From Exiguobacterium mexicanum (lineage in GTDB: Bacteria; Bacillota; Bacilli; Exiguobacteriales; Exiguobacteriaceae): DNA of 64,000 bases. Each line of letters starts with the position of its first letter. Position 1 is the first letter of the stretch. Below, piece by piece: positions 51,015-53,553 of the stretch. The position numbers were made by a program, and so were the translations under genes. The DNA lies in assembly GCF_005960665.1 (NCBI RefSeq), contig NZ_CP040676.1, positions 1,560,501-1,624,500 on the forward strand. The letters are read 5' to 3'. Below the pieces are notes generated by a model that saw nothing but the letters and a program-made list of their open reading frames with translations, had not been told where the DNA came from and did not search any database.

Positions 51015-51209
51015 ATGACTAACGAACAAATGATTGAGGAAATTCTCGACAAAATGAACATCATCAACCGCGGCGCTATCAAAGCGGAAGAATATAACCG
51101 TGCCGACGCCTCGGCCGTCAAAGAGATTTACGACTACGTGATGAACCGCTCATCGCTGTCGATCTCTGAAGTGGATGGGATTGTCGAAGAACTCGGACAA
51201 TTGACGTGA
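51015..51209 (+). CDS. UPF0435 (DUF1128, YfkK-like) small protein
   Basis: A 64-residue acidic helical protein preceded by AGAAAGGGG. It contains MIEEILDKMNIINRGAIKAE and ends VDGIVEELGQL, matching the UPF0435/DUF1128 family (B. subtilis YfkK), function unknown. It is one of few plus-strand genes and lies between smc and rnc, a place not used by yfkK in Bacillus. Its terminator hairpin appears to be split by the IS element that follows. Confidence 0.85.
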   Translation: MTNEQMIEEILDKMNIINRGAIKAEEYNRADASAVKEIYDYVMNRSSLSISEVDGIVEELGQLT

Positions 51210-51220
51210 TGAGATGACAG

Positions 51221-51234
51221 AAAAGGAGTGGACC
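51221..51234 (+). repeat. Left arm of a terminator hairpin split by the IS element
   Basis: AAAAGGAGTGGACC starts 12 bases after the UPF0435 stop. It is the exact reverse complement of GGTCCACTCCTTTT at 52703-52716, which runs into seven T residues. Together, without the IS, these make a 14-bp bidirectional terminator for the UPF0435 gene and rnc. Confidence 0.7.
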
Positions 51235-51246
51235 CATTAAACTGTA

Positions 51247-51292
51247 CCCTGAGTAGTAGACACTAAAAAAAAGTCTACTGCTCAGGGTTTTT
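51247..51292 (+). terminator. Terminator hairpin inside the left end of the IS3-family element
   Basis: CCCTGAGTAGTAGAC pairs with GTCTACTGCTCAGGG (15 bp, one G-T) across 11 bases and is followed by TTTTT on the plus strand. It would stop transcription entering from the UPF0435 side before orfA. Confidence 0.88.
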
Positions 51293-51330
51293 GTGTACAC
51301 TGGACTAAATCATATTGGGAGTGAATTCGA

Positions 51331-51771
51331 GTGTCGAAGAAGATATTTACGTCAAAAGAAATAGATGCGCTAGCCGCAAATCCTTACGTTAAATCTGTGA
51401 GCCCGAAAGGGATCACGTATACCGATGAGTTTAAGGAACTTTTTATAGCACAGACGTTGGAAGGAAAGTTCCCTGTGGAAATCTTCCGGGGATGTGGATT
51501 CGATGTGGAGGTACTCGGTGAACGGCGTATGAGTTCTTGTAAAAATCGTTGGACACGAGCTTACCGAAAAGATGGGGTAATGGGGCTGCGCGATACACGA
51601 TCAAGTAATTCAGGACGTTGGAGAGATAAAGAGCTGTCGACAGAAGAACGGTACGCGAAGCTCGAGGCCGAAAACAAACTGTTGAAAGCAGAGGTCGAAC
51701 TATTAAAGGAGATCCGCCTGGCGGAAGGGAGAGGAAAGCTGGACTTAACGCATCGCAAAAGTATGAGCTGA
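51331..51771 (+). CDS. IS3-family transposase OrfA (helix-turn-helix subunit)
   Basis: The 146-residue OrfA begins MSKKIFTSKEIDALAANPYV, with a DNA-binding domain (about 30-95; TYTDEFKELFIAQTLEGKFP) and a leucine-zipper-like C-terminus (YAKLEAENKLLKAEVELLKE). In IS150-type elements OrfA binds the ends and is fused to OrfB by a -1 frameshift. Here orfB is in the -1 phase and open from upstream of its first ATG, consistent with that. The frame is intact. Confidence 0.88.
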   Translation: MSKKIFTSKEIDALAANPYVKSVSPKGITYTDEFKELFIAQTLEGKFPVEIFRGCGFDVEVLGERRMSSCKNRWTRAYRKDGVMGLRDTRSSNSGRWRDKELSTEERYAKLEAENKLLKAEVELLKEIRLAEGRGKLDLTHRKSMS

Positions 51772-51797
51772 TTCAAGGTGTCATCATCAAGCACAAA

Positions 51798-52658
51798 ATG
51801 AAGGGGATGGTCAGCCATCTCTGCCAGGTGGCCGGGGTGTCACGTCAGGGATACCACGCCTATTTCTCGGAACGGAGGAGACAGACCAGACAGGAGCGCG
51901 AATCGAAAGACGTGGCTCTTCGTGACCTCGTTCTGAAGGCGTTCCACTTCAAGAAGCGCAAGAAGGGTGCTAGGCAGATCAAGATGGTGCTGTCTGGTCA
52001 TTTCGGTGTGACGATGAACCTGAAGTGTATCCGACGTATCATGCGGAAATACAACATCGTGTGTCCAATCCGCAAGGCGAAGCCATACAAACGGCTCATT
52101 AAGGCGACGGCCGAGCACCGGGTGGTGCCGAATCGCCTCAAACGCGAATTCAAACAGGGCACTCCCTACAAGGTGCTTCTCACCGATATCACCTACATAT
52201 TTTACGGGAACGGTAAGCGAGCCTATCTTTCGACCATCGTGGACGGTTCGACCAATGAGGTACTGGCGCATCAACTCTCTGAGAACATCAATCTCGACAT
52301 TGTATTGGATACGTTGAAGCGTTTACGGAAGAACCGGAGGATTCGCTTGGACAAGGACGCATTCATCCATTCAGATCAAGGAGGGCACTACACGAGCCCG
52401 ACCTATCAGAAAGAGGTGAAGCGTATGAAGCTAGGTCAATCCATGTCCCGACGGGGCAACTGTTGGGATAACGCTGTCCAGGAATCATTCTTTGGACATT
52501 TCAAGGATATCGTCGAGTTAAAGGCCTGTACCACGTTCGATTCACTACAGCGTGAAATCCGAAAAACCATTAACTATTACAACCATCATCGTTATCAATG
52601 GAACATGAAAAAGATGACTCCCGTACAGTACAGGAATCATCTCCTTGAATCAGCATAA
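51798..52658 (+). CDS. IS3-family transposase OrfB (DDE integrase domain)
   Basis: The 286-residue catalytic part has an HTH_21-like N-terminus and an rve-type core with Asp130 (LLTDITYIF), Asp193 (HSDQGGHYTS) and Glu229 (NAVQESFFGHFK); the last two are separated by exactly 35 residues, the DD(35)E rule. The frame is open before this ATG and reads LNASQKYELIQGVIIKHK, so the natural product is probably an OrfAB frameshift fusion. It looks intact and possibly active. Confidence 0.92.
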   Translation: MKGMVSHLCQVAGVSRQGYHAYFSERRRQTRQERESKDVALRDLVLKAFHFKKRKKGARQIKMVLSGHFGVTMNLKCIRRIMRKYNIVCPIRKAKPYKRLIKATAEHRVVPNRLKREFKQGTPYKVLLTDITYIFYGNGKRAYLSTIVDGSTNEVLAHQLSENINLDIVLDTLKRLRKNRRIRLDKDAFIHSDQGGHYTSPTYQKEVKRMKLGQSMSRRGNCWDNAVQESFFGHFKDIVELKACTTFDSLQREIRKTINYYNHHRYQWNMKKMTPVQYRNHLLESA

Positions 52659-52717
52659 GTTTTTTTATTAATGTCCTTTACAAGGGGTACAGATTACATT
52701 GAGGTCCACTCCTTTTT

Positions 52718-53497
52718 TTATAGGCCGGCGTACTGCCGGTTGAATTCAATCAACGCTTCCTTCGCCGCGAGTTGCTCGGCTTCTTTCTTCGATCGGCCGA
52801 TGCCTTCGCCGACGATATCGTCTGACAGACGGGCATGGGCGACGAACTCCCGGCTATGGGCCGGACCACGCTCTTCGATAATCGTGTACGAGACAGGCCC
52901 GAGACCTTCTCGCTGGACGCTTTCTTGGAGCTGACTCTTATAATCGGTCTGTTCTTCAAACACACCGGCCAAGACTTTCGGAAAAACCGCTTCGGCGAGG
53001 AACTGTTCGACTGGTTCAATCCCTTGGTCCAGATAGAGCGCGCCGATGTATGACTCGAACACGTCCGCGAGTAGCGCCGGACGCTTGCGTCCGCCGGTCA
53101 ACTCTTCGCCTTTCCCAAGCAAGATAAAATCAGAGAAAGCATAGGCTTCCGCAAAGTTAACGAGTGATGGCTCACAGACGATGGCCGCCCGCAACTTCGT
53201 TAATTCCCCCTCGGAGCGCTCCGGATACGTCTCATACAAAAACCGAGACACCGTCAACTCGAGCACCGCGTCGCCTAAAAACTCTAAGCGCTCATTGTCT
53301 TTTTTCAGACCGCGTTGTTCGTTGACGTATGAGGAGTGGGTGAACGCTTGCATCAATAGGTCTTGGTTCGTGAATCGAACCGACAGCCGTTCTTCAAGTA
53401 CTTTAAACTGCTCGAGAATCCGTGACCGCTCGAGCTCATTTCGCCGACGCCGTTGCGCCGACCCTTGACGGTCAAACCGTCGCTTGTCCTTTGTCAT
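52718..53497 (-). CDS. rnc: Ribonuclease III
   Basis: Cleaves double-stranded RNA in rRNA and mRNA processing. It has 259 residues from the ATG at 53497 with GGAGGG ribosome site. The RNase III signature [14 protein letters not shown] and downstream acidic residues ([18 protein letters not shown]) are intact, followed by a dsRNA-binding domain (about 185-255) ending [19 protein letters not shown]. The basic N-terminal extension (about 1-30) is as in Bacilli. Its stop is two bases inside the old terminator T-run beside the IS. Confidence 0.97.
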
Positions 53498-53518
53498 AAT
53501 TCCCTCCGTGTATAAGCA

Positions 53519-53553
53519 CAAGCCCACCGCTCATGACGAGCGGTGGGAGGCTT
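53519..53553 (-). other. Strong hairpin between acpP and rnc without a T-tract
   Basis: CCCACCGCTC pairs with GAGCGGTGGG over a five-base loop, with partial AAG/CTT outer pairing. The minus strand continues CTTGTGCTT, so this is a poor terminator. It could be a processing or stability element in the acpP-rnc mRNA. Confidence 0.55.

Follow-up and report, generated by a model that had tools for sequence, protein, structure and literature searches.

Why does an IS3-family element lie inside the loop of a hairpin that appears to end two converging genes? The question arose from the window, a stretch of 64,000 nucleotides from Exiguobacterium mexicanum, in which a first-pass annotation had proposed that the element targeted the hairpin loop. 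The locus contains the following features, the names of the two flanking genes being those of that annotation.

51015..51209, plus strand: UPF0435-type gene, a 64-aa ORF converging on the terminator
51221..51234, plus strand: host terminator, left arm of the split stem, the exact reverse complement of 52703-52716
51235..51237, no strand: left copy of the target duplication CAT, in the hairpin loop, from copy comparison
51238..52696, plus strand: IS3-family element of 1459 bp, its ends from copy comparison and its family from the transposase
51331..51771, plus strand: orfA, an ORF with an HTH_Tnp_2 domain
51798..52658, plus strand: orfB, an ORF with a DDE integrase domain (rve), in a different frame from orfA, with which its open frame overlaps
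52697..52699, no strand: right copy of the target duplication CAT, from copy comparison
52703..52719, plus strand: right arm and T-run of the split host terminator, the arm being the exact reverse complement of the left arm
52718..53527, minus strand: rnc, a 269-aa ORF converging from the right

As originally described, the arm AAAAGGAGTGGACC (51221-51234) is the exact reverse complement of the arm GGTCCACTCCTTTT (52703-52716), and seven T residues occupy 52713-52719. The left arm does begin 12 bases past the UPF0435 stop, and the proposed overlap with the rnc stop holds for the T-run but not for the 14-nt right arm itself. Removal of the element restores a hairpin as suggested, albeit with a loop of 6 nt (CATTGA) rather than 11 bases, because the element ends lie at 51238-52696 and CAT is duplicated. 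The empty site, from which the element and one CAT were removed, thus reads AAAAGGAGTGGACC-CATTGA-GGTCCACTCCTTTTTTT. It folds at -23.3 kcal/mol, and none of 200 shuffles folded equally well. With its stable stem, the T-run after it and its place at a gene end, the site has the form of an intrinsic terminator. A pattern scan for promoters and terminators with a loop limit of 3-8 listed neither this host hairpin, which is split, nor the left-end hairpin described below, which was missed because the loop limit excludes it.

The symmetrical placement of the arms around the element could also mean that they belong to the element's own ends and not to host DNA. This explanation is refuted, and we assign it practically no probability: the arm 14-mer occurs at a single place in the whole genome, namely the studied copy, the flanks are unlike one another at all 11 copies in the genome, and IS-free relatives carry the hairpin. 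In 18 of 18 other genomes of the genus, a UPF0435-type gene was matched near rnc and the gap can form a hairpin, with folding energies between -17.9 and -28.2 kcal/mol. The exact left 14-mer is kept in 8 of these 18 IS-free relatives; the remaining ones have altered arms with retained pairing, and the loops vary. Given these hairpins in every same-genus relative searched, the one at the studied site is not due to chance.

The studied element is one of 11 full copies, identical at 100%, in its own 2.69-Mb genome. Aligning them set the ends as TAAACTGTACCC...GGGTACAGATTA, and a 3-bp target duplication flanks 10 of the 11. The terminal inverted repeats TAAACTGTACCC and TAATCTGTACCC, the short target duplication, and an HTH-bearing OrfA upstream of an OrfB in a different frame are those of the IS3 family. 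Moreover, OrfB scored 259.9 bits against the curated IS3 transposase model NF033516 (cut-off 160) and contains rve and HTH_21 domains. This genome also has, on a 68.7-kb contig, a remnant of the IS that has diverged and lost internal sequence (G000:C3:64342-65496; L014 and L015).

The empty sites of the genome's own copies are terminator-like loops in 9 of 11 cases by a relaxed test and in 8 of 11 by a strict one, with stems that are all different; the copy passing only the relaxed test (L006) folds at -10.9 kcal/mol. The comparison of empty sites with relatives covered the studied site, L004 and L010 among the own sites. At L004, all 18 relatives have a hairpin, of -13.8 to -26.1 kcal/mol. 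Together, the IS-free hairpins at two sites (18 of 18 each) and the 9 of 11 own copies in loops support the original proposal that the loop was the target. As for the others, L013 has a weak hairpin (-5.7 kcal/mol), and L010 (G000:C4:1327810-1329268) lacks the duplication and has mismatched halves. Since the left flank of L010 continues in G009 into an apparent gene start, its flanks probably derive from different places, through an IS-linked rearrangement.

We sought OrfB relatives in 19 same-genus genomes including the own one (15 with a match at E of 0.001 or below), in 398 same-class genomes (37 at E of 1e-65 or below) and in a wider genome collection, from which at least 80 loci were kept. 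Among the matches listed, 175 loci were obtained, 46 without credible ends were dropped, and the remaining 129 gave 116 distinct sites; 83 of these, 10 of them own, carry a 3-bp duplication and form the main set, and 33 do not. Element ends were called by a motif rule in which hairpins played no part. The strict test demanded a dG of -12 or lower, a duplication centre no more than 2 nt from the loop, and an A or T tract. A classifier that needed the tracts to lie at the outermost stem positions was discarded, as it counted too few sites because A- and T-tracts pair.

By the strict test, 54 of the 83 duplication-flanked sites are terminator-like loops, and 46 of 73 without the own copies, again among the matches listed. 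The same test was passed by 1.07% of 25,077 random flanking positions, and swapping right flanks among the 83 sites gave a mean of 6.0 and a maximum of 10. With the relaxed test plus a tract, the count was 62 of 83 against 3.8% at random and 19.9 after swapping. The mean dyad score of the 83 sites was 25.3, compared with 11.7 (sd 0.48) when right halves were swapped, and 52 sites scored no lower than the 99th percentile among 38,691 control positions. The relaxed hairpin test was failed by 19 of the 83, some of which are long-loop hairpins or in-stem sites; plain non-terminator sites include those of G222 (2 copies, left-end hairpin present) and L111 (within a gene). The 33 sites without a duplication score lower, with 12 having a dG of -12 or lower within 2 nt, 11 of them also with a tract and therefore strict.

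Could the pattern arise from insertion anywhere, with persistence only in harmless gaps downstream of genes? The sites are indeed mostly intergenic, and of 77 hairpin sites 42 lie between converging genes, 21 have both genes along the element, 11 against it, and 3 are otherwise arranged. Selection for harmless gaps, however, fails to predict the loop, and the duplication centre falls within the apical loop at 63 of 77 relaxed hairpin sites (64 from the main group and 13 from the distant group described below). Furthermore, elements of other IS families (IS256-type and DDE_Tnp_1-type) in four of the same genomes (G348, G123, G076 and G000) passed the strict test at none of 34 sites and the relaxed one at 5, although the ends of these controls are approximate and most lack a duplication. 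We thus regard survivorship as very improbable.

When ten IS1182-family copies of G007 are included, 5 of 44 control copies are strict, all of them IS1182-family. Both flanks of this G007 element (NF033551, 489.7 bits for L310) are exact copies of one 20-30 bp sequence that can form a hairpin and in most cases has a T-run; in all 10 copies examined (L310, L318, L325, L344-L350), the entire stem-loop is what was duplicated at the target. Stem-loop duplication was drawn as a possible pathway in PMC5678879.

More distant IS3 elements were also examined. A group at about 33-35% OrfB identity, with the terminal repeat TGATATGCTCCCC, was first taken as controls and then counted separately; 12 of its 14 sites are strict loops. 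Two of the 14, L224 and L225 (G000:C4:204396 and 682292), belong to a second IS3 element of the own genome, with 35% OrfB identity, terminator-like loops and 3-bp duplications. An IS3 element at 39% has one copy in a loop; another, L219, lacks a left-end terminator and lies outside the loop, on the 3' side, at the T-run, of a terminator-like hairpin that is intact. An element at 28% has two copies, both with weak hairpins only (about -9 kcal/mol) and no tract. For IS150 of E. coli, 10 of 20 matches listed were taken, from 3,402 matching records; two were truncated, and the 8 that have both ends, representing at most 6 distinct places, include no terminator loop, the folds being judged by eye. 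The IS150 copies adjoin hokA or hokB in 8 of the 10 places (L353, L355-L358, L360-L362), a link that is already known.

What is recognised at the target, the DNA palindrome or the act of termination? The transposase could be guided by a terminating RNA polymerase or a nascent RNA hairpin, and terminators, not just any hairpin, are indeed hit: an A- or T-tract accompanies 66 of 68 target hairpins (strict, with the tract optional) compared with 308 of 1357 flank hairpins, the latter being counted only with the scanned point in the loop and the former up to 2 nt off it. With tracts nearly always present, terminator function and palindrome shape are inseparable here. However, hairpins with both tracts are favoured over those with a T-tract only (48 versus 10 among targets, 49 versus 164 of 1357 in flanks). 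Nor is there a bias between tract direction and element orientation in the 77 relaxed sites (T only 10, A only 9, both 55, neither 3). This symmetry fits a symmetric DNA palindrome better than a transcription signal that acts in one direction, without proving the palindrome. Guidance by RNA or polymerase is accordingly rather unlikely in our judgement, and DNA, rather than a transcription complex, is presumably what the transposase recognises.

The element also carries a hairpin of its own near the left end:

51246..51293, plus strand: left-end terminator-like hairpin, in which the inner left terminal repeat pairs with its own inverted copy in a 16-bp stem, followed by a T-run

The first 73 nt of the element fold at -28.8 kcal/mol (z -5.7). 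Over the first 70 nt, the mean fold is -24.5 for left ends and -10.1 for right ends (48 distinct left ends). In 55 left ends that were selected because they have the hairpin, compensatory changes occur in 8 of 9 consensus stem pairs, and 91.9% of cells are paired, as opposed to 67-72% when the 3' halves were shuffled ten times. On account of these compensatory changes and the excess pairing, the left-end hairpin is, by the measure of its sequence, maintained by selection. Among the matches listed, it is present with a T-run in 60 of 72 element clusters, and the distant 33-35% group likewise carries it; the left end of E. coli IS150 has no terminator-like hairpin. The relatives formed 77 protein clusters, of which the tree omits L137, L144, L180 and L207 (non-credible ends) and the cluster count also omits L121.

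The left-end hairpin and the choice of target appear associated. Sites lie in hairpins in 90 of 116 cases with a left-end hairpin and in 6 of 18 without (p = 3e-4), and in 76 of 92 and 3 of 12, respectively, when only duplication-flanked sites are considered, although these counts are rough, as kinship is ignored and the hairpin labels admit weak, tractless hairpins (such as L170, L197 and L226). Counted by element cluster with the same neglect of kinship, hairpin sites are in the majority in 47 of the 60 clusters that have the left-end hairpin and in 5 of the 12 that lack it (p = 0.016); the other 13 of the 60 speak against a strict link. In a clostridial clade nested in the group (7 rows, support 99), the left-end hairpin is absent, and just 2 of the 11 sites bear the hairpin label. 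A Patescibacteria-type pair on small metagenome contigs (L196 and L198, support 99) has neither left-end hairpin nor hairpin sites. By eye, both members of this pair lie directly 3' of tRNA-like genes. The tree is a quick one, and its deep order is unsure owing to long branches.

Outside Bacillota, the relatives among the matches listed are single copies on metagenome contigs, which may have been binned wrongly. The site of L178 (Planctomycetota) is a labelled hairpin and that of L195 (Mucilaginibacter) a weaker one; L179 (Yonathbacteria) and L204 (Oligoflexia) have no 3-bp duplication, and L204 also lacks the left-end hairpin.

Taken together, we consider it likely that this IS3 lineage recognises DNA shape, enters terminator palindromes at their tip and carries a hairpin that may act as a substitute terminator. 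Sequence comparison establishes the class of target, the precision of insertion, the variety of stems, the 3-bp duplication and the conserved left-end hairpin, with target choice being read from resident copies. In the proposed mechanism, the transposase would join the element ends to the palindrome tip, producing a 3-bp duplication centred near the dyad. The target would be chosen by its shape regardless of the stem sequence, the shape being that of an intrinsic terminator: a cruciform or hairpin whose outer arms are rich in A and T. Circular intermediates are a feature of IS3-family transposition, and one would presumably form here too. The inner left terminal repeat, its inverted copy and the T-run would serve as the substitute terminator, carried, we propose, because the element usually splits one. 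Transcription from the left would then end ahead of the transposase gene, and the neighbouring gene on that side would have an end again; that the left-end hairpin truly terminates transcription is a prediction from its predicted fold.

We also lean, with less assurance, towards a broader account, in which a widespread lineage in Bacilli and Clostridia, with lone metagenome copies, reads terminator shape whatever the stem sequence, its left repeat having evolved into a replacement terminator, and in which both traits were lost together in nested lineages, namely the clostridial clade and the tRNA-adjacent pair. If true, there would be a DDE transposase that reads DNA structure, and it would belong to a family whose biochemistry is well established, so that the way in which a protein locates a cruciform or hairpin in a chromosome would become testable. 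The account suggests a route by which an IS could persist at high copy number, by entering a replaceable part of a gene and bringing the replacement. Insertion into terminator loops would also be a way of placing DNA downstream of genes while leaving the genes unbroken.

Palindrome targeting as such is already known (IS1397, ISPsy8, IS1272), and there are precedents for each half of the proposal. ISPsy8 inserts at the symmetry axis of a REP hairpin with a 3-bp direct repeat, according to PMC1525189. ISPsy8, IS1397 and ISKpn1, which enter REP or PU palindromes, likewise belong to the IS3 family; REP elements, however, form a single family of repeated sequences that share a consensus where insertion occurs, whereas the element studied here enters unrelated terminator stems. 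Targeting of a REP-type sequence was rejected, as the stems differ at the 11 own sites and the arm 14-mer occurs at the studied copy only.

For IS1272/TnSha1, PMC4923244 and PMC5678879 describe target hairpins with no common primary sequence, of which hairpins A-E are terminators by RNA-seq. These IS1182-family elements have a different transposase family and insert bluntly, deleting part or all of the stem-loop and making no target duplication. Replacement of the stem-loop in the manner of IS1272 was rejected for the studied element, which keeps both arms and has a 3-bp duplication. Terminators are natural targets of group IIC introns. These introns insert beside a DNA stem-loop recognised partly by shape, according to PMC10190682; they are RNA retroelements placed beside the stem, whereas the studied element lies in the loop.

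IS150 of E. coli shares the IS3 family, a similar terminal repeat and OrfA/OrfB with the studied element, but differs from it in being found in no terminator loop and in having no terminator-like hairpin at its left end. The IS1447 subgroup, an IS3-family group common in Firmicutes, is described in PMC6211511, whose available text does not report terminator targeting; nor do the available parts of PMC9208149, PMC545597 and PMC5771124 report targeting of terminator loops by IS3 or a terminator formed on its left repeat. Within the open-licence PMC literature, we found no report of terminator-loop targeting by the IS3 family or of a terminator on a left terminal repeat. As far as that literature shows, what is new against these known systems is an IS3 mechanism, with insertion in the loop, a 3-bp duplication and both arms kept, combined with sequence-independent terminator targets, their breadth, and a terminator built into the element.
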